A stretch of DNA of 60,309 nt from a virus: positions 1 through 60,309 of IMG/VR virus record IMGVR_UViG_3300028800_000101; one strand, 5' to 3'. Positions 37,028-46,681 of this stretch are shown here, piece by piece; within the stretch, counting starts at the first letter, position 1, and each line of letters opens with the position of its first letter. Under the pieces are notes generated by a model that searched no databases, was not told where the DNA came from, and saw only the letters and a list, made by a program, of their open reading frames with translations. The position numbers were made by a program, and so were the translations under genes.

Positions 37028-38965
37028 GTGAAACTCTCTCTATTCTCAATCGACACGGCCGCAAAGCCTGACTCAACGATGGTACGCACTGGCTCCGACA
37101 TCCGGGCGCCATATCCGCCAGAAGCGATGAAGGTAACAGCGGATGACGTGCGCGGCTATCAGGAGATGCGGAGTATGGTGCAGCGCATGAACCGAGCCAT
37201 GGACGCGGCGACCGTGGACAACTTCACGCAGGACTTGCGAGGATCGTATGGGGACGCCAACACGGAGCTATACCCGTACAATTACACGGTCAGGGCCCGC
37301 GCTCGCACACTTGCTAAAAACACGTCTCACGGAAAAGGGACGATGCGGGTATATGCTGATAATGTCGTCGGTGACGATCCGTTCGAATTGGAAATGAAGA
37401 TCATCAAACGGACGACGGATGGTAAACCGGTGAAAGATGACAACGGCGAGCCAACGGAGGATAAAGAGCTTTCAGAAGCAATTTGCGAAGCTTGGGGGAT
37501 ATTCCGGTGGCAGGAGAATTTTACAGTTCGCAAGAACATGGACTTCATGGAAGCCCTGAGAGTGGCGGAAATGGCGCGTAAACGGGACGGCATGGTGATT
37601 TGCCGCATGTATCCAAATTACAAGTTCAACGATTTCGGATTCGCTGTGGATTTTCTTGAGCGCGATCATTTGCAAGAACAGTGGAGCGGATTCTCTCCTA
37701 GCGATGGACTGTTCGGCGCCGACAATCCAATCGTGGGCAGCATCGAGCAGCATCCTGAGTTCAAATTCGCGCTGGCCTACTGGCTACTGCGCCGGCATCC
37801 AGGTAATGCCTACGCCATTGCGGCAAGTCCGTTCGACCAGCGCAACTTCAGGGAGCAGGTTCCGGCAGATCAGGTGATACTGATGGACAATCCCCGCACA
37901 CGGCCAGAACAGGACACGGGCGACACTGAGTTCGATGCGGCGTTGCTGGCGCTGTGGCGGATTCACCAGTACGAAAAGAGCCTGACGCTGACATCGATCT
38001 TGTGCGCCAGCCGCCCGTGGTGGATTGAAGAGGACAAACCGACCGGTCTGGAAATGCCGGGTTATGCGGCGCAACTGTTGCAGAATTATCAGTTGAACTC
38101 GCTGGACACCGGAATACAGCCATCGATGCCCGGAAGCGATCCTGCAGCCTCACAGAACAATGACGACCCGAAACGGCAGATGATAAAGCCGACCAGCCGT
38201 GAGCAGATACCGGCAGGCAAACATTTGAAATGGGCGGATGCTAAATTCCCAGTGGAGGCGGCCAGCACGTTTCGCAAGGATAACGAGCGCGATCTTGCGA
38301 CCGGCACGCATGGATCGTATGCGCAGATGAGCGGCGATTATCAGAACCTTGGATTTGTTGCCGGCCTGATGAGCCAGATACCTTTCCAGCGGAATGTCAG
38401 GGTAAATCAGAAAACTTTGGTAGAAGACTTGCGCCCGCTCTTCCGCGCATGGCTTAAATCAACGATCCTCAAAGGTTATTTTGACAAGAAAGGAATTCTT
38501 GTAAGTATTTCACGTTTGGAAGAATTTGTTGCCAGCGCGTTCTTCAAAGGACAGCAAGCTGAATTTGTTAATCCGCTGTTGCAGATGCAGACTTTGATCC
38601 TCGGCAATGAGGCTGGTCATTTGACAGATCAGCAAGTTCAAGATGCGCTCCCGAACGGCATCACAACGGACAAGCTGTATGCGATCAAGAAGTCCGAACA
38701 GGAACGGAAGCTTGCGCTCGGCCTCATGGCGCCGTCCGCCGTGGCGGCCATGCCTAGCCTCGCGCACGAGGGCACGGCGGCGCCAGGATCAGAGCGCCCC
38801 ACGGAGCCAGCGACACCGGCAACCGAGCCGGGCGGAGCGGCGGATGCGCCGCCGAAGAGCAAGCCGCAGCGTCCGGGCGTGAACAGGTCGCATACCCCAC
38901 GGATAGCGGGCACGATTGACGACACGACGCGGATGCTGTTGCAGATGAGCGAGAACGGACACTAA
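37028..38965 (+). CDS. Portal protein, lambda type
   Basis: 645 residues from a GTG 3 bp after the previous stop. Typical lambda-portal segments are RARARTLAKNTSHGKGTMRV near residue 90, the later VDFLERDHLQEQ, and the clip/stem part around YEKSLTLTSILCASRPWW. The C-terminal 80 residues are Pro/Ala-rich. It forms the dodecameric ring for DNA entry and tail joining. It overlaps the next gene by one base. The portal is coded after the capsid, not before it as in most siphoviruses. Confidence 0.85.
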   Translation: MKLSLFSIDTAAKPDSTMVRTGSDIRAPYPPEAMKVTADDVRGYQEMRSMVQRMNRAMDAATVDNFTQDLRGSYGDANTELYPYNYTVRARARTLAKNTSHGKGTMRVYADNVVGDDPFELEMKIIKRTTDGKPVKDDNGEPTEDKELSEAICEAWGIFRWQENFTVRKNMDFMEALRVAEMARKRDGMVICRMYPNYKFNDFGFAVDFLERDHLQEQWSGFSPSDGLFGADNPIVGSIEQHPEFKFALAYWLLRRHPGNAYAIAASPFDQRNFREQVPADQVILMDNPRTRPEQDTGDTEFDAALLALWRIHQYEKSLTLTSILCASRPWWIEEDKPTGLEMPGYAAQLLQNYQLNSLDTGIQPSMPGSDPAASQNNDDPKRQMIKPTSREQIPAGKHLKWADAKFPVEAASTFRKDNERDLATGTHGSYAQMSGDYQNLGFVAGLMSQIPFQRNVRVNQKTLVEDLRPLFRAWLKSTILKGYFDKKGILVSISRLEEFVASAFFKGQQAEFVNPLLQMQTLILGNEAGHLTDQQVQDALPNGITTDKLYAIKKSEQERKLALGLMAPSAVAAMPSLAHEGTAAPGSERPTEPATPATEPGGAADAPPKSKPQRPGVNRSHTPRIAGTIDDTTRMLLQMSENGH

Positions 38966-39372
38966 TGAAATCGCCATACGAAGTTCATGCGTATCTTGCG
39001 GCGCAGGCGCAGGCGTTTCTTGGCGGCCAGCCCGGCAACGGCAACCGGACGCTCGGTGCGACACTGACGCTGTTCGGCATCATCGTTCCATGCACGCACA
39101 GTGAGGTCAGGCGCAACTGGATTCTGGATGATGGCAAGTCGATCAAGACTTTCGTGGAATATTGCGAGTTCATTGCCTCGGACCTGCCAGCGGCCGTGCC
39201 GGCAACGAATCCCCCACAACCGATGGCGCAGGCGCTTGAGAAGGGTGTGTTTTGCCAGTTGAAGCTAAACCCGACTCTGCCGACGTTGCCGATGCGGCTC
39301 TGGATCGGAGGCTTGCAACCGGGCGGGCTGCTGTACCGGTTCATGCTGGTCGGTGCGGACTATGCTGGTTGA
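38965..39372 (+). CDS. Head-tail junction candidate
   Basis: 135 residues, directly after portal and last gene before the opposing island. It contains NRTLGATLTLFGIIVPCTHSE and ends with a beta-rich part (LPMRLWIGGLQPGGLLYRFM). A connector or stopper role is inferred from place only. It converges with the glycine-repeat gene 8 bp away. Confidence 0.45.
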   Translation: MKSPYEVHAYLAAQAQAFLGGQPGNGNRTLGATLTLFGIIVPCTHSEVRRNWILDDGKSIKTFVEYCEFIASDLPAAVPATNPPQPMAQALEKGVFCQLKLNPTLPTLPMRLWIGGLQPGGLLYRFMLVGADYAG

Positions 39373-39380
39373 TAGTAAAA

Positions 39381-39629
39381 TCATATTTTTAGTTCTTTCG
39401 ATGTGCCATCGCCATTGCCTCCGCCAAAGACCCCGCCATTGCCATTGCCATAGCCAGAGCCAAATCCATCGGCATTACACCAGCCATCTCCAAAGCCCCC
39501 GCCATTGCTACCGCCAAATCCAGAGCCAAATCCAAATCCATCGCCACCGCCCATACCATAGCCTATGATGTGCGGCGGCCCACCGGAGAAGATGGCTAGC
39601 GCTTCAAGCTCGGCAGTGAATGGAGACAT
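39381..39629 (-). CDS. Glycine-repeat mini-protein, copy 1
   Basis: 82 residues in three parts. The conserved head is MSPFTAELEALAIFSGGPPH. The middle is a Gly-X repeat with X mainly Phe, Asp, Ser and Asn. The conserved end is GTSKELKI. Two paralogues (40894, 42495) share head and end but differ in repeat. It starts 6 bp after the ligase stop. Its own stop lies in ATGA with a short frame on the minus strand (MILLSTSIV...) that overlaps the opposing head gene and may be a relic. No family was recognised. Confidence 0.6.
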   Translation of the reverse strand: MSPFTAELEALAIFSGGPPHIIGYGMGGGDGFGFGSGFGGSNGGGFGDGWCNADGFGSGYGNGNGGVFGGGNGDGTSKELKI

Positions 39630-39635
39630 ATACGA

Positions 39636-40277
39636 TCAGTAAGTAACCAGCCACTCGCGGCACGGCACGGCTTGCCGCAGCTTCCCCGACTCGAAAGCGT
39701 TCAGCGCCTCGCAACGCACGATACTCCCCACGCGCACCATGTCGCACTTGCCGCCGCGCAGTGGCAGCCGCCCGAGGTCCTGCCCGGTCACGGCGTCCAC
39801 GATCCCCACGGACTGCCCGGGGCCGATGCTGGTGACTCGGCACAGGTAGATTGATGCGCGCTTGCACGCTTCCATCGGATCGAAGTAGGTGGCGGTGGCC
39901 AGCTTGCGCACCACACCTTCGCCTCCGCGGGCCAGTACCGCATTGAGCAGCGCGCCGCCGTGCGCGGATGATTCAGCAACGGGTAATCCGGCGAGTCTTG
40001 CCACCTCTTTGCATAGGTCCCACCGAAGGCTGGCGGAAAGACATCGAACATCCGGCTCGGTAGCATACGCATAAATTAGGCAATCCCAAGCGATGAACCT
40101 GCCATTTGGCATCCGTTCGCCAGCCAGAATTCCCCCCGAAACAGCCATAATCTCGAAGCGACCGTCCAGCTTCTCCTGGTAGAGTGCGCCATCGGTTTTC
40201 CACGTCATCCCGGTTTCAAGCGGAACAATTATCTTCGTTGGATGCGTGTCCCATGAGGTAAAGCCTGATATGCTCAT
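39636..40277 (-). CDS. Compact ATP-dependent DNA ligase-like nucleotidyltransferase
   Basis: 213 residues. EKLDGRFE has the KxDG adenylation site (Lys36-Gly39), AWDCLIYA fits motif III and GEGVVRK (119-125) motif IV. The last 65 residues read as a small OB-like beta domain. That is near the lower limit for such enzymes; accessory DNA-binding domains are absent. It may seal nicks during phage replication. The ATG at 40277 overlaps the previous stop (ATGA). Genuine ligation activity is likely, but an RNA ligase is not excluded. Confidence 0.65.
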   Translation of the reverse strand: MSISGFTSWDTHPTKIIVPLETGMTWKTDGALYQEKLDGRFEIMAVSGGILAGERMPNGRFIAWDCLIYAYATEPDVRCLSASLRWDLCKEVARLAGLPVAESSAHGGALLNAVLARGGEGVVRKLATATYFDPMEACKRASIYLCRVTSIGPGQSVGIVDAVTGQDLGRLPLRGGKCDMVRVGSIVRCEALNAFESGKLRQAVPCREWLVTY

Positions 40278-40510
40278 TTGGTCACCTCGACTTTTAATTC
40301 GTGTCCATTCGACGTGTTCAAATAAACATATCCAGTAGACATAATTAACACACTCTTGCAATGAACTGTGCAGACTCGAACCCCAGAACGGGGATACAAT
40401 GGAAACCGCTTATCGTACAGATGCGCGGTGAATGCTGCATTCAGTGGAGTGACGTTTGGAACAATATAAATTGATTCCAGCTTTATCCGTTTAGGATTAA
40501 ATATACTCAT
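40274..40510 (-). CDS. Hypothetical protein, 78 residues
   Basis: It starts after a double AACAACGAA leader and is coupled to the ligase by 4 bp. Beta-rich with a Cys pair (RVCTVHCKSVLIMSTGYVYL). No family was recognised. Confidence 0.5.
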   Translation of the reverse strand: MSIFNPKRIKLESIYIVPNVTPLNAAFTAHLYDKRFPLYPRSGVRVCTVHCKSVLIMSTGYVYLNTSNGHELKVEVTK

Positions 40511-40514
40511 AATA

Positions 40515-40531
40515 TTCGTTGTTTCGTTGTT
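40515..40531 (-). promoter_or_regulatory. Double AACAACGAA leader motif of 40510
   Basis: Two overlapping exact copies on the minus strand (40515-40523 and 40523-40531), the nearer ending 4 nt before the start codon. Confidence 0.6.
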
Positions 40532-40576
40532 TAAGTGCGTTGCTACTATAATCGCGTGGCGTTCGCAGTGCAAGCA

Positions 40577-40897
40577 TTATTGCGGGCCTGGCATGACAAG
40601 GTTATCTTCGCCATCTCGAATATCCCCACGCTCGTCGATATACGTTTCTGGCAACTGTGCGCCGAGACGCCGCAGATCGGCCAGCGCGTAGTCGCGGCGG
40701 ATCAGGGTCGGCGGCGTGGTGGCCGGGTCGAACGCGGTGTAGCGCCGCCGCTTGACCCCGTTAACGACCGGCTCAAAATCCCCCGGGTTGCCGTCGATCT
40801 CGCGGGCGATCAGGGTCGGCGTCAGATGCTTGGCGGTACTGGACCAGTCTCCGGTCGGGCCAGAGTTCGCATATTCGAGAGCAAATAGTAGAATCAT
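40577..40897 (-). CDS. Hypothetical protein coupled to glycine-repeat copy 2
   Basis: 106 residues. The ATG overlaps the stop of glycine-repeat copy 2 (ATGA). It contains a basic/aromatic stretch (VKRRRYTAFDPATTPPTLIR) and an acidic end. No family was recognised. Its first residues (MILL) and first bases resemble the short frame after copy 1, so the two junctions appear related. Confidence 0.5.
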   Translation of the reverse strand: MILLFALEYANSGPTGDWSSTAKHLTPTLIAREIDGNPGDFEPVVNGVKRRRYTAFDPATTPPTLIRRDYALADLRRLGAQLPETYIDERGDIRDGEDNLVMPGPQ

Positions 40898-41064
40898 ATT
40901 TTTAGTTCTTTCGAGGTTCCATCGCCATCGCCATCGCCATAGCCACCGCCATCGCCATAGCCATAGCCATAGCCATAGCCATAGCCATCGCCATAGCCGA
41001 TGATGTGTGGCGGTCCACCGGAGAAATGGGCTAGCGCGGCCAGTTCGTCGCTAAAAGGTGACAT
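40894..41064 (-). CDS. Glycine-repeat mini-protein, copy 2
   Basis: 56 residues. Head MSPFSDELAALAHFSGGPPH, then a repeat of Gly-Tyr and Gly-Asp (five GY in a row, coded by the hexamer GGCTAT) and end GTSKELKI. It is the shortest copy. Its start lies inside the end of the 41031 gene (34-bp overlap), and its stop overlaps the next start. The near-perfect hexamer run suggests length can change by slipped-strand replication. Confidence 0.6.
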   Translation of the reverse strand: MSPFSDELAALAHFSGGPPHIIGYGDGYGYGYGYGYGDGGGYGDGDGDGTSKELKI

Positions 41065-41303
41065 AGACGATCTTTCGGGACCAGGATCTCGCCGCATTCG
41101 TCAGTGACAGTTTTTGAGGTTTTGCCGGTGCGCAACTCCCCAAGTCCTTTGCTAGTCCCCCACACGCGGATGTTCACCGCATGCGAGATGAGGTAGAAAT
41201 CCCCATCGTAGGTTACGTCTCCGTGGAAAACGAATCCGTTGTCAACGACGGCAATGAATTCGCCCATTACCACCAGCGTTTTTGCGTTCAGTTGGAATTG
41301 CAT
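41031..41303 (-). CDS. Small beta-barrel phage protein, DUF6948-like
   Basis: 90 residues. The core VVDNGFVFHGDVTYDGDFYL, then VNIRVWGTSKGLGELRTGKT and TVTDECGEILVP, matches the order (WGTxxGLGEL, then a TSxTVxD turn) of a small phage family I know as DUF6948. Function unknown. It has an A-rich leader (aacaaacaacaaat). The end overlaps glycine-repeat copy 2 by 34 bp. Confidence 0.55.
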   Translation of the reverse strand: MQFQLNAKTLVVMGEFIAVVDNGFVFHGDVTYDGDFYLISHAVNIRVWGTSKGLGELRTGKTSKTVTDECGEILVPKDRLCHLLATNWPR

Positions 41304-41331
41304 ATTTGTTGTTTGTTTGTTGTTTTCAGAA

Positions 41332-42498
41332 TCAAAGAATCCTCACAGTGCGGCCAGTATCGGCCACAGCATCAGCGGTCACAAGCCACAGAGTCGGAAT
41401 GATCTCGCTGGCTGGCTGGCCACTCCCGCACAAGTCTGTCAGATAGATCAGGCCGGCAATCCGCTCCCCGCCTTCGATCAGTTCGGCTGCGCGTGCGAAC
41501 GGCGCGGCGAAGTCGGTGCCGCCGCCGCCTTTGGCTATCAGCGGCACTTCCCCACCTGGTTCAATGCGATGCTCGGCTTGAATATCGGTGTCGCAATCGA
41601 GTAGGATCAAGCCGCAGTTCAATTCCCCACACGCGGAGGCCAGCAGTGCCGAGAACTCGGCGGCCAGCCAATCATCGATGCTGCCGCTCGTGTCGCGCAC
41701 GCCGATGATCCAGCCAATTTCATTCTGACGTTTTGTTGGATAAATGACCGGCTGCCAGGAGTGACGGCGCGGCGAGCGAGTCCAATCGTTCCGAGCTGAC
41801 GCGGAGTTGCGCACGAAGTCGGCAGTTTCGCGGCGCCAGTCGATTTGAACGGCGGCCACGCGGTCCAGGATGCGCTGCATGTCGCCCGGCACGTTGCCGG
41901 CGCCGCTCGCCTTGGCCGCCTGAGCCGCTTGAATGACGGCCCGCTCCCATTTATCGCGCAGGGTATCAGCCGGCGCACCGGCGGCTGGCTGGCCCGGATG
42001 ATCCGGCGCCGGCGCGCAGTACGAGCCGCATGAATCATCGGCGCCAGGTTTGCGCCCGCTCTGCGGCTGGCTCTGTAATGCGGCGTAAATCTCCTCTTCC
42101 GCCATGCCAGCGAATTTTCCATCGGCCAAGCCGCCGACAGGCATCGTCGCATCGTCAAAGCCGCCGTTGAGCAGCAAATTGATTGCATGATCGCACGCTT
42201 GGTTTGCAGTCTCATGGTTGACCGACCCGGCGGGGAATCGCCAAAGATGATGGTGCGCACAATGTAGCGTTTCATGGAGCAAGACAAATCGGGTTTCCTC
42301 GTCGGTCAGCTTTGTAAGAAACTGACGGTCCCACATTATGCACGTGCCGTCGGTGCAAGCGGTGTGGCCGTTCGGATTGCCGAGTCGGTCAGTCAGTTGC
42401 GCCATGAGTTGCGAATAGAACACCGCTTTCGGATTGCTGAGTGCCCACCATCGAGCTCTATCCAGTTTCAGGGTCAATTCGTTATCGGTCATATTCAT
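41332..42498 (-). CDS. VWA-domain protein with N-terminal metallopeptidase motif (DUF2201 type)
   Basis: 388 residues. The N-terminal half has HETLHCAH (His75, Glu76, His79, with His82 near), the zinc site of the putative metallopeptidase domain. The C-terminal part is a VWA-like domain with a MIDAS set: DTSGS (269-273), Thr328 in GGGGTDF and Asp355 in LTDLCG. Such proteins pair with MoxR-type AAA ATPases, and one lies upstream in the same operon. Together they may remodel or cleave a host or virion protein. The ATG overlaps the stop of glycine-repeat copy 3. Confidence 0.8.
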   Translation of the reverse strand: MNMTDNELTLKLDRARWWALSNPKAVFYSQLMAQLTDRLGNPNGHTACTDGTCIMWDRQFLTKLTDEETRFVLLHETLHCAHHHLWRFPAGSVNHETANQACDHAINLLLNGGFDDATMPVGGLADGKFAGMAEEEIYAALQSQPQSGRKPGADDSCGSYCAPAPDHPGQPAAGAPADTLRDKWERAVIQAAQAAKASGAGNVPGDMQRILDRVAAVQIDWRRETADFVRNSASARNDWTRSPRRHSWQPVIYPTKRQNEIGWIIGVRDTSGSIDDWLAAEFSALLASACGELNCGLILLDCDTDIQAEHRIEPGGEVPLIAKGGGGTDFAAPFARAAELIEGGERIAGLIYLTDLCGSGQPASEIIPTLWLVTADAVADTGRTVRIL

Positions 42499-42719
42499 AT
42501 GTTTAGTTTTTTCGATGTGCCACCGCCAAAGCCACCGCCAAAGCCATCGCCACCGCCAAAGCCATCGCCCCCGCCAAAGCCAAAGCCAAAGCCAAAGCCA
42601 AAGCCACCGCCAAAGCCACCGCCAAAGCCAAAGCCAAAGCCACCGCCATCTCCGATGATGTGTGGCGGTCCACCGGAGAACGTGGCTAGCGATTCAAGCT
42701 CGGTAGTGAATGGCGACAT
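42495..42719 (-). CDS. Glycine-repeat mini-protein, copy 3
   Basis: 74 residues. Head MSPFTTELESLATFSGGPPH, then a dense Gly-Phe/Gly-Gly repeat (GFGFGFGGGFGGG type) and end GTSKKLNI. It starts 9 bp after the 264-residue gene and ends in ATGA with the VWA gene. It is thus fixed inside the ATPase/VWA operon and likely translated in step with it. FG-type repeats are typical of self-associating low-complexity proteins. Confidence 0.6.
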   Translation of the reverse strand: MSPFTTELESLATFSGGPPHIIGDGGGFGFGFGGGFGGGFGFGFGFGFGGGDGFGGGDGFGGGFGGGTSKKLNI

Positions 42720-42728
42720 AAAACGAAT

Positions 42729-43523
42729 TCACGCCAGATTTAAATTCCCCAAAATGGTAGCAATTCGGTCCCCAGTGTCTTTGCGCGCAGTCTTGGCGTC
42801 CCGTAAAGCTTCTGCCTTTTGCGTTGCCGGCTCGCGCAGATCACGCGCAGCTTGGGCGATGATCGGATCATCCAAAAGGTTGAATCCTTCGCCGGCCAGC
42901 TCGCACACTTCGCGCAAGTTGTCCAAAGCAGATTGATAAAGTTTTCCGTCCGCCTTGCACACGTCGGCCAGGTGCCGGGCCGTCGTGACCAGTCGCTCGC
43001 GCAGTTCGGCTTGCCCAGCTTGCGCTGTTTCGTCAAGCCAATCGGACCAGGCGCCATCTGACGGGCATGGCAAATAGCGGGTAGCAAAAGCGAATTTGCT
43101 GGCCACCTTTTCACGTGTCGGCCATTTGCGGCCGTCAAACAAGCCATTCAGTTTGACCGGCGCCTCAAGTTTGATCGTCTCATAATCTGCCAAGAAATCA
43201 TTAACGAGAGCCGCATGTCGGCGTCCAAATTCCCCCATGACCAAGCTGTGCTCAAGTTCTTTGCCGCATGGCACGACGCGCAGACCATCCTGGACGGATG
43301 GCAACGTGATGCTTTTGTGCGCTGAATAAGCTTCGGCATGGAGTTTGTACAGCGCCGCGAGTGACGCATGATCGGTCAGGCGCACGATGACCTTGGCGGC
43401 ATTGCCGCTGGAATTCTGGCGGTTCACATCATTCGACGCTGGCCGGTTGAGTTTCTGCGCGCGCCACGCGCCAGTTGTTAGCGTTACGAGTTTGATCCGG
43501 CTTGCGAGTATTGAGTTTTGCAT
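42729..43523 (-). CDS. Middle gene of the AAA-VWA operon, 264 residues
   Basis: A helical protein with a basic start. Contains VIVRLTDHASLAALYKLHAE, LVMGEFGRRHAALVNDFLAD and a coiled C-terminal half (ELRERLVTTARHLADVCKAD). Size, helical build and place between AAA and VWA genes recall the DUF3150-type partner seen in similar phage triads, though this match is from memory. Leader aaacaactaacact is a variant of the recurring motif. Confidence 0.5.
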   Translation of the reverse strand: MQNSILASRIKLVTLTTGAWRAQKLNRPASNDVNRQNSSGNAAKVIVRLTDHASLAALYKLHAEAYSAHKSITLPSVQDGLRVVPCGKELEHSLVMGEFGRRHAALVNDFLADYETIKLEAPVKLNGLFDGRKWPTREKVASKFAFATRYLPCPSDGAWSDWLDETAQAGQAELRERLVTTARHLADVCKADGKLYQSALDNLREVCELAGEGFNLLDDPIIAQAARDLREPATQKAEALRDAKTARKDTGDRIATILGNLNLA

Positions 43524-43554: not shown

Positions 43555-44595
43555 TTATTTCCCCACGGTGAACAGTCCTTGATTATCGGTGAACCATTTG
43601 ACCCATTCGCGGCATCCGCTCAGATGCGCGCCAAGCCGCCGGTAGGCATCCCGGGCGCCCAGGGCCGCCATGACCCGCGGCAGGCGCGAAATGTAGCGAA
43701 TGAACGCCGGAGCGGTCGGCGCCGTAACTGCGCGTCCGAGCGAGGTGACGATGAGCCACTGTGCGGACGGTTGATCCGGCAGCGGTGCGCCATCAGGATC
43801 AAGCCAGACTTGATCCGGAGACGGCAATTGCGATGCGAGCGCAGCGAACGCGAGAAACTCGGCTGCAGCCGGCTTGCCGATAACCGCCGCACATTGGGCA
43901 AGCGATTGAAGGCCAGCATTCCAGCGCTGGATCATGGCACCCCAGGATCGGTAATCGGCCATGCGAACGGACGGATCAGCGCAAGGTTTCCAAGCATATA
44001 ACGACTTCCCCACGGTGGACCTGTGCCAGGCGATGATCTCGACAGGCGCCGCGTTGTCCATCGCCCACTCGCACCACGACTCGACTTCATCGCGCCATTC
44101 CCCAAGCATTACCCCACCGTCAGGCTTATCCTCGCTGCCAGGTGTTGGAATCACATAGCATGAGTGGAATCGTGACCGGAGCGGCTCGCACAGCGAATTG
44201 ACACCGGCTTTGTCTCCTGGCCGATTTGTGGCGGCCCAAATTACGACGTTGTCCGGGAAAAAGCCTCCGTCGAACGTACGCATGAGCGCCGCTTGAACGT
44301 CCCCCGGCGCCTGCCCCAAATCATCGACAAAAAGTATAGTTGGCTCCTTGGTTGCGCGGAGTTCGGCTACATCGCAGAACGGTAGCTGGCGCGAAACCCC
44401 ACCGGGCACGTCCGGCACGATGCAACCGCTGATGTCAACGCGCTCCATCAGGCTCGCGCGCCACGTGACGACGCGGTAGCCGGCTGCGCGAGCGGTGGCG
44501 ATGATCCGGGCGGTCTTGCCGGTGCCGGGCGGACCGACCAACAGGACATTCTGGTGGGCGGACAGTTCGGAGCGTAGGGTTTGTGTCGAGTTCAT
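43555..44595 (-). CDS. MoxR/CobS-like AAA+ ATPase
   Basis: 346 residues. Walker A GPPGTGKT (21-28), MERVDISGCIVPD (the substrate loop common in MoxR-type), Walker B ILFVDDLGQA with Asp-Asp in place of Asp-Glu, sensor 1 IWAATNRPGD and an Arg finger in LCEPLRSRFHS. The C-terminal lid is about 150 residues. These ATPases act with VWA proteins as remodelling chaperones. It is the first of three genes that reach the VWA protein. Confidence 0.8.
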   Translation of the reverse strand: MNSTQTLRSELSAHQNVLLVGPPGTGKTARIIATARAAGYRVVTWRASLMERVDISGCIVPDVPGGVSRQLPFCDVAELRATKEPTILFVDDLGQAPGDVQAALMRTFDGGFFPDNVVIWAATNRPGDKAGVNSLCEPLRSRFHSCYVIPTPGSEDKPDGGVMLGEWRDEVESWCEWAMDNAAPVEIIAWHRSTVGKSLYAWKPCADPSVRMADYRSWGAMIQRWNAGLQSLAQCAAVIGKPAAAEFLAFAALASQLPSPDQVWLDPDGAPLPDQPSAQWLIVTSLGRAVTAPTAPAFIRYISRLPRVMAALGARDAYRRLGAHLSGCREWVKWFTDNQGLFTVGK

Positions 44596-45629: not shown

Positions 45630-46130
45630 TCATGCGAATGGGCAGGGAATAATTTCGCGGATTTTATCAGCCTGCCATTTTCGCTCCGCAAGGTAGGCGG
45701 CGGCGTAGGCGGCGGCGCAATCGGCGGCGTCGTAGGCGGCGTAGGCGGCGTAGGCGTCGTCGGCGGCGGCGGCGGCGGCGACGTGCGCGGCGGCGGCGTT
45801 GGCGGCGGCGTTGGCGGTGGCGTTGGCGGCGGCGTCGGCGGCGGCGGCGGCGGTGGCGGCGGCGGAGTCGGCGGAGTCGGCGGCGGCGGCGGCGGCGGCC
45901 ATTCGATTCGCTTCTGTTGACGTTTTGATCCATCGCTCCGCGAACTCGATTGCCAGTCTGACCGATGTCGGTTTGTCGAGTTGTGCCGTTTTTCGAAGCA
46001 ACCAGATAAGCCAGTCGCCGCGCTCGCAAGTATTCCAGATTTTTGCGGCGTCAAAGCCGCACGATTTTGCAAATAATGCTCCGTCTTGGCACGGCTTTAG
46101 GTCGATAATTTGTTGTTTGGTTAGATTCAT
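45630..46130 (-). CDS. Imm-5-like protein with long Ala-repeat tail
   Basis: 166 residues. Residues 10-70 (LKPCQDGALFAKSCG, TCERGDWLIWLLRKTAQLD) match the pattern of the Imm-5-like putative immunity family found in phages. Residues 78-150 are Ala-rich with spaced Asp, Asn and Tyr (AAYAAYDAADCAAAYAAAYL). These come from GCC/GCG runs and give long Pro- or Gly-rich shadow frames. A fused helical rod is likely. The start follows a double AACAACGAA leader and hairpin copy B. Function unknown; the immunity label is a family name only. Confidence 0.6.
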   Translation of the reverse strand: MNLTKQQIIDLKPCQDGALFAKSCGFDAAKIWNTCERGDWLIWLLRKTAQLDKPTSVRLAIEFAERWIKTSTEANRMAAAAAAADSADSAAATAAAAADAAANATANAAANAAAAHVAAAAAADDAYAAYAAYDAADCAAAYAAAYLAERKWQADKIREIIPCPFA

Positions 46131-46131
46131 A

Positions 46132-46148
46132 TTCGTTGTTTCGTTGTT
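46132..46148 (-). promoter_or_regulatory. Double AACAACGAA leader motif of 46130
   Basis: Two overlapping exact copies on the minus strand (46132-46140 and 46140-46148), one base before the start codon. Confidence 0.6.
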
Positions 46149-46202
46149 TTGTTGAATTTTCCGCATGCTCCCCACACGCTCGTCGTATGGGGAGACTGCG
46201 AA
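46147..46202 (-). promoter_or_regulatory. Repeated leader hairpin, copy B (before 46130)
   Basis: Same element as copy A with a longer loop: CTCCCCA/TGGGGAG stem, identical flanks, GCATGC palindrome. It is followed on the minus strand by the AACAACGAA leader. Confidence 0.55.
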
Positions 46203-46210
46203 CAATTCGG

Positions 46211-46681
46211 CTACGCTGCCGCCACCAGCCCAGCGAGCCGCCGGGCCGCGTCCGCCTGCGCGGCGACGTGCGCGGCGACGCGGGCAACCGTGGCCGTCCG
46301 ATACTCCGCGTCCGCGACCTGGCACTGGTCGCCGTAGCTGTCCAGGGCGGCGATCAGGTCGGCAAGCTGTGTGGGCGTCAGGTTCGACGCGATTTTCACA
46401 TTTCCAAGCGTAGCATTGCAGCATGATACGGTATGCCTATCGGTGGACTTGTGAGGGCCGGAGCAGTTGAACTGGCTGGTGAACGGGGCAGGTAGCGGTG
46501 TGACGACTGGCCACTCCGGGAGCTGGTCCATGTCGTCCAACTCGTTGACGCCGTCTTTGTGACGCCGGCAATAGCGATCGCACATGCTACCAAGTGCGGC
46601 ATCGATTCGTGCGGCTGCGCGGTTGATGCGAGCGGCGACTTGTTCGGGGGTTACGGAGGTTATGGTTTGGTATGTATTCAT
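46211..46681 (-). CDS. First gene of the minus-strand island, 156 residues
   Basis: It has helical ends (EQVAARINRAAARIDAALGS and a final Ala/Arg helix AAHVAAQADAARRLAGLVAA) around a Cys/His-containing middle (MCDRYCRRHKDG, DRHTVSCCNATLG). No family was recognised. ATG 46681 is used because the AACAACGAA leader lies before it; a longer frame starts inside the control region. Confidence 0.5.
   Translation of the reverse strand: MNTYQTITSVTPEQVAARINRAAARIDAALGSMCDRYCRRHKDGVNELDDMDQLPEWPVVTPLPAPFTSQFNCSGPHKSTDRHTVSCCNATLGNVKIASNLTPTQLADLIAALDSYGDQCQVADAEYRTATVARVAAHVAAQADAARRLAGLVAAA

Follow-up and report, generated by a model that had tools for sequence, protein, structure and literature searches.

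Why does a phage keep three short genes whose products begin and end alike around a middle of glycine repeats? Are these proteins at all, and if so, with what do they work? The window analysed here is the whole 60,309-nucleotide stretch of IMG/VR virus record IMGVR_UViG_3300028800_000101. Its minus strand carries three mini open reading frames (ORFs) built around glycine-X (Gly-X) hexamer arrays, called copies 1 to 3 below. We find that the Gly-X ORFs are genuine small proteins and belong, as the second gene, to a two-gene module conserved among phages; its first gene encodes a 90-residue DUF6948-like protein with a predicted Sm/LSm fold. The four genes are, in the direction of transcription:

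42495..42719, minus strand: Gly-X copy 3, 74 amino acids, Gly-Phe/Gly/Asp array, first in the direction of transcription
41031..41303, minus strand: DUF6948-like protein, 90 amino acids, predicted Sm/LSm fold, the regular upstream partner of Gly-X genes
40894..41064, minus strand: Gly-X copy 2, 56 amino acids, Gly-Tyr/Asp array, the copy within the two-gene module
39381..39629, minus strand: Gly-X copy 1, 82 amino acids, interrupted array

The three mini-ORFs lie where a preliminary description of this DNA had placed them, and they share, as it had claimed, the head MSPFxxELxxLAxFSGGPPHIIG and the end GTSK(E/K)L(K/N)I. This likeness is far above chance. The head DNA TTCTCCGGTGGNCCNCCNCA has exactly three sites in the whole window (0.2 expected with three mismatches allowed), and the end DNA GGNACNTCGAAANAACTAAANATATGA likewise has three sites there (0.00 expected). 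The hexamer arrays within the mini-ORFs were verified at the DNA level. The middles had been described as pure Gly-X and different in each copy; they are indeed differing aromatic-glycine stretches, but that of copy 1 is not pure, being broken by GMGG, GWCNADG and GGVFGG. At the X positions of the window copies, Phe and Gly are commoner than in most arrays. The claim that each copy is coupled to a downstream frame holds for two copies at most: ATGA is present at all three stops, but a plausible downstream gene follows only copies 2 and 3, the stop of copy 3 overlapping the start of the DUF2201 gene at 41332-42498. The stronger coupling of copy 2, missed in the preliminary description, is upstream. 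Its ATG lies within the 3' end of the ORF at 41031-41303, giving an overlap of 34 nucleotides, and an alternative in-frame ATG is found further upstream, at 41097. Copy 2 is a short-head Gly-X array directly downstream of a DUF6948-like gene.

Do the mini-ORFs encode proteins? An open frame is weak evidence here, since a hexamer array has no stop in any of its three frames, and codon-level and frame tests were therefore run. Over the head and end of the three copies, variable columns number 4, 4 and 15 at codon positions 1, 2 and 3, and pN/pS (nonsynonymous over synonymous change) is 0.15-0.35; codon-level purifying selection is thus present, as seen in small numbers and in a comparison of paralogs. 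The frame is also retained outside this phage. A search with the window 90-residue protein led to locus L214, an independent phage fragment whose homolog is 71% identical to the window protein. Directly downstream of that homolog, with the identical 34-nucleotide overlap, L214 encodes MPFDSRDLEPLGNFSGGWTRIVNSGSGSGDGARSGSGSGYGDGDGESRELLC, which keeps in frame the head (M, PF, (D/E)L, L, FSGG) and the end (S(K/R)EL) around a shorter Gly-rich middle. A homologue retaining both head and end in frame therefore exists, and the coding proposal is not refuted on this point. A search of viral and genome contigs with the strict head pattern FSGGPPHI returned only the same phage (L004, 99.99% identical) and chance matches. 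The strict end pattern gave no match, and a portal-based search for phage relatives returned only the same phage.

How regular is the pairing? Counts on viral contigs are samples among the matches listed and not a census, and the loci are partly dereplicated. Among 120 loci fetched solely for carrying Gly-X arrays (hereafter pattern loci), 29 hold homologs of the 90-residue protein, a number that an iterated hidden Markov model (HMM) raises to 75. A DUF6948-like gene lies directly upstream on the same strand in 62 of the 107 loci with clear Gly-X ORFs, against 1.9 by random placement. In the reverse search, started from the DUF6948-like protein, a Gly-X mini-ORF stands directly downstream in 68 of the 77 assessable IMG/VR loci (70 of 77 when the short Gly-X stretches of L214 and L264, recognised by eye, are added), a linkage that may be overstated because the search profile was built from Gly-X-linked members. 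Both genes take one relative frame in 64 of 70 pairs, and the Gly-X gene most often starts 16 nucleotides before the end of the upstream stop codon. We regard the linkage of the two genes, and the fold assignment given below, as well supported. A single ORF fusing DUF6948 to Gly-X was looked for in the loci and none was found; only PHROG 18306 (function blank) hints at a fused form, since in its alignment DUF6948 members align at 155-240 and Gly-X stretches, weakly, at 56-138. A plasmid search gave no match, and neither did a PF22253 search of one bacterial genome, that of L007, a result that is not informative.

The pair also exists in isolated phages, namely Rhodobacter phage RcapNL, the Rheinheimera Barba phages (the 90-residue protein has matches in 115 records, 5 of which were inspected for the pair), Chlorobiaceae phage CV-1-33 and Pectobacterium phage Sabo, where its genes are annotated as 'hypothetical'. 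It is present in metagenome-assembled phages as well, one of which labels the Gly-X gene 'lamprin'. In CV-1-33 the deposited gene (gene25; L299, 4274-4519) follows the MAMAMAL... (AMAMAL) reading of the hexamer array. The Gly-X frame starts at a separate ATG within the last part of the DUF6948 gene and is the likelier gene of the two. Hexamer arrays are liable to such wrong-frame annotation. Neighbours of the pair in relatives are often RecT, Sak, ERF, RecE/YqaJ, DnaB and DNA polymerase genes, a replication and recombination neighbourhood that is suggestive only, because phage early regions commonly carry genes of this kind. As a separate observation, the Gly-X arrays of L169, L136, L166, L302 and L303 are fused to a common C-terminal domain (IDGVPTII...WHHxLTGSCxxGRxxF...) that has no Pfam match, and several of these fusions lie directly downstream of DUF6948-type genes.

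What kind of protein is the upstream partner? The ORF at 41031-41303 has no match in Pfam; it did not reach the model PF22253 (DUF6948) at an E-value of 1 in a single scan or of 0.01 in an alignment scan, and we therefore name it DUF6948-like and not a member. Profile and predicted fold both point to a link with DUF6948 members. An iterated HMM from the window protein merges with PF22253 (22 of 62 aligned relatives match, best 3.5e-30), hhalign of close relatives against PF22253-type sequences gives a probability of 79.6 (P 1.5e-5), and DUF6948 models in BFVD match the predicted structure with a template modelling (TM) score of 0.81. AlphaFold2, given the 90-residue protein and its relatives, predicts a strand-strand-strand-helix-strand-strand barrel at a predicted local distance difference test (pLDDT) of 93. 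With Foldseek and VIA-align, nearly all of the best PDB matches are Sm/LSm proteins (top Z 8.7, 2.9 Å over 73 residues), and an Sm/LSm fold is predicted accordingly; compared with that fold (a helix and a five-stranded bent barrel), the model has one element more, a helix between strands 3 and 4. By eye only, the spacing of G23 and G28 is similar to that of the Sm1 motif.

The Gly-X protein has a different character. Over 130 arrays, X is Tyr in 42%, Asp in 24%, Asn in 17% and Ser in 12%, the four together making up 94%; His amounts to only 1.2%, though its codons are one transition from those of Tyr. Complete Gly-X mini-proteins are acidic (median net charge -6) and about 20% aromatic. The AlphaFold2 model of copy 2 (pLDDT 52) contains nothing confident, only a short helix in the head, and a Pfam scan of the Gly-X ORFs gave composition artefacts only (TrAA12, keratin head). 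The suggestion that hexamer slippage changes the length of the repeat is borne out, in frame, between near-identical phages: Barba 12-8E has one hexamer more than Barba24S with an identical upstream flank, and L155 and L192 differ in array length between flanks more than 99% identical. So is the more general picture of a fixed head and end with a fast-changing aromatic-glycine middle.

Where do copies 1 and 3 come from? Both have the features of the mini-protein without an adjoining DUF6948-like gene. Copies 1 and 2 have GATCGTNT in common ahead of the ATG and, from the ATGA onward, ATGATTYTACTAT; judging by this shared sequence, copy 1 probably arose by duplication of the unit that holds copy 2. 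The frame after copy 1, of 39 codons and antisense to the convergent gene at 38965-39372, would for that reason be a remnant. Most simply, copy 2, which belongs to the module, would be the parent, and copy 1, probably together with copy 3, would have arisen later when the tail gene alone was duplicated. Multiplication of the Gly-X gene is also seen in L020, where four tandem copies follow one another stop to start between a DUF2201 gene and the DUF6948-like gene.

What might the module do? Proteins of the Sm/LSm (Hfq-like) fold usually build rings that bind RNA or single-stranded DNA. We tentatively propose, with slightly less than even confidence, that the module is an Sm-like protein with a disordered, acidic, aromatic-glycine tail supplied in trans. 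The strongest hint to this mechanism is the pairing itself: a predicted Sm-type fold goes with an acidic chain, predicted to be disordered, that is encoded by a gene beginning within the Sm-type gene. The first gene would provide the DUF6948-like protein, which may form a ring and bind nucleic acid; the second would provide a short head, an acidic (Gly-Tyr/Asp/Asn/Ser/Phe)n chain predicted to be disordered, and a short end. Because the second gene starts inside or just after the first, it is probably translated by coupled re-initiation. Head, end or both may dock on the Sm-like protein or on a client of it. The chain could then act as a flexible acidic and aromatic tail of the ring that competes with nucleic acid for it, and/or gather the complex at sites of phage DNA replication or recombination through multivalent weak contacts. 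Such a chain would tolerate changes of length because only its composition matters, selection would hold the head and the end, and in the window phage the tail gene would have been duplicated without the Sm-like gene. A wider claim can be made, that phages commonly use a system organising ribonucleoproteins or replisomes, composed of an Sm-fold ring and an acidic, Tyr-rich, low-complexity tail from a separate, translationally coupled, fast-evolving micro-gene that can be duplicated and retuned in length by hexamer slippage; we rate this as rather doubtful.

Besides the possible overstatement in the reverse search, several observations weigh against an Sm core with its tail in trans. Many Gly-X arrays are solitary or fused to other domains, and there are DUF6948 genes without a Gly-X neighbour (Iodobacter phage PhiPLPE, L019, L287 and L290); in PhiPLPE the next annotated gene after DUF6948 does not encode Gly-X. 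The VIA Z scores are mostly 7-8, close to what common arrangements reach. A profile search of PDB sequences found no solved Sm protein at an E-value of 1, and because of this lack of sequence similarity the Sm assignment stands for a predicted fold, not for proven homology or RNA binding. Finally, DUF6948-like proteins carry little or no net charge (median 0, window protein -1), so that an Hfq-like model of electrostatic nucleic-acid mimicry is not favoured.

Could the Gly-X proteins instead be free formers of condensates or gels, with Tyr and Phe as stickers and Gly as spacer, that gather phage DNA or proteins into compartments, with an Sm-like gene that is co-regulated but no physical partner? 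Low complexity, the high aromatic content and the lack of a confident fold agree with this, as do solitary or multi-copy arrays without a DUF6948-like neighbour (copies 1 and 3, the tandem copies of L020), and the idea stays alive because an aromatic-glycine chain could add weak multivalent contacts. The role of self-associating tag, suggested in the preliminary description, is likewise plausible for a chain to which AlphaFold assigns no confident structure. Against this stands the near-constancy of the pairing with the DUF6948-like gene, of the relative frame and of the overlap, which points to a joint product ratio or a complex, and we consider free condensates unlikely. Less likely still is that Gly-X is a modular spacer or adhesive segment of many phage proteins, whether structural, anti-host or other, the mini-proteins being the shortest version of it; they would then act on a host target, and the DUF6948-like protein would serve as chaperone or regulator. 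Fusions of Gly-X to several unrelated domains, including DUF7666, speak for it; it leaves the conserved DUF6948 overlap without a reason, and in most annotated phages examined the genes lie in replication or recombination regions and not with virion genes. Very improbable is a hexamer element acting at the DNA or RNA level, as a recombination hot spot or structured RNA, with the ORF as by-product: its arrays are open in all frames and do expand and contract, but the divergence of head and end is biased to synonymous change, L214 retains both, 64 of 70 pairs have one relative frame, and X is biased in residue, with His avoided. As for a precursor of a ribosomally made, modified peptide (RiPP) with conserved leader and variable core, an idea of the preliminary description to which short ORFs, a conserved head, a variable middle and several copies lend some colour, it is hardly credible, because no maturase or other modification enzyme, processing peptidase or exporter adjoins the Gly-X gene in the annotated phages examined; conservation also extends from the head to the end, and in the window the neighbours comprise AAA and DUF2201 genes and uncharacterised ORFs.

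Are these neighbours partners in their own right? The genes around the module in the window are:

43555..44595, minus strand: AAA ATPase, 346 amino acids (PF00004 8.1e-10, phrog_1297 3.9e-41), upstream neighbour
42729..43523, minus strand: 264-amino-acid protein between the AAA and DUF2201 genes, conserved in related phages
41332..42498, minus strand: DUF2201 metallopeptidase-like and VWA-like protein, 388 amino acids (PF13203 1.7e-24, PF09967 3.2e-13)
40577..40897, minus strand: 106-amino-acid ORF that begins in the ATGA of copy 2

A scaffold for the neighbouring ATPase and VWA (MoxR/DUF2201) proteins had been one suggested role of Gly-X. MoxR/DUF2201 genes accompany Gly-X in only about 5 of the 120 pattern loci, and they were dropped as general partner; the regular one is the DUF6948-like gene. 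In another DUF2201 phage, L018, a DUF6948-type gene is followed by Gly-X with an ATGA overlap, and the layouts of L020 and L018 therefore make the AAA and DUF2201 genes neighbours within a phage group. The best PHROG for 41332-42498, phrog_1314, is labelled 'HNH endonuclease', which looks wrong because Pfam gives DUF2201 metallopeptidase-like and VWA domains. The gene at 42729-43523 terminates 9 nucleotides before copy 3; it has no Pfam or PHROG match, and its relatives in L014-L020 are 37-47% identical. The ORF at 40577-40897 has no Pfam match, and a 58-residue stretch of it is 48% identical in L014 (7286-7627). These two ORFs and L020 7789-8025 form a small family with the motif (D)xxTTPPxLxR, placed after copy 2 in the window, after the DUF6948-like gene in L020 and after the DUF2201 region in L014.

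Two further ORFs of the window, both on the minus strand, deserve mention. That at 39636-40292 (218 amino acids) contains EKLDGRF and EGVVRK, which by eye resemble motifs I and IV of ATP-dependent ligases; it has no Pfam, PHROG or PDB sequence match. The low-complexity ORF at 45630-46424 consists of an N-terminal stretch (LKPCQDGALFAKSCGF...WLIWLLRKT), an Ala-rich part and then an Ala-Tyr repeat (array 45696-45899), and its N-terminal part resembles, by eye, stretches fused to Gly-X in L097, L155 and L195.

These results give a testable identity to a class of 'hypothetical' genes that many unrelated phages carry. They put forward an Sm/Hfq-like fold for DUF6948 and raise the idea of an Sm core with a disordered tail encoded in trans. 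The isolated carriers (Barba, RcapNL, CV-1-33, Sabo) make the pair directly testable. In our literature search no paper named DUF6948 and none dealt with phage GYGYG proteins, and the genes of the pair receive no discussion in the main texts of the papers on Barba and RcapNL. The view that no family of this layout has been described agrees with that search. DUF6948 is already catalogued, without a function, and the pair was not found described.

How does the module compare with known systems? The PF22253 family itself has no description that includes a Gly-X partner gene. The phage Sm-like protein of PDB 3by7, from a marine metagenome, matches the predicted fold (Z 7.6, 2.1 Å over 63 residues) but differs at 14% identity, and no Gly-X partner is known for it. 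Bacterial Hfq is alike in combining an Sm core with an acidic disordered tail able to regulate nucleic-acid binding: its C-terminal tail attaches in cis to the Sm core, displaces nucleic acid and keeps DNA from aggregating (PMC5606850). In Hfq the tail belongs to the same chain and the rim is basic, whereas in the module the tail is a separate gene and Gly-aromatic, and the core is near neutral; the two have no sequence relation, and the comparison is one of how they may work. Eukaryotic Sm/LSm proteins also carry low-complexity tails, such as the RG tails of SmD1 and SmD3 and the tail of Lsm4. There too an Sm core is joined to a tail, Gly-rich or of low complexity, by which assembly is promoted, but those tails are in cis and RG- or QN-rich, whereas that of the phage module is acidic, aromatic and supplied in trans.

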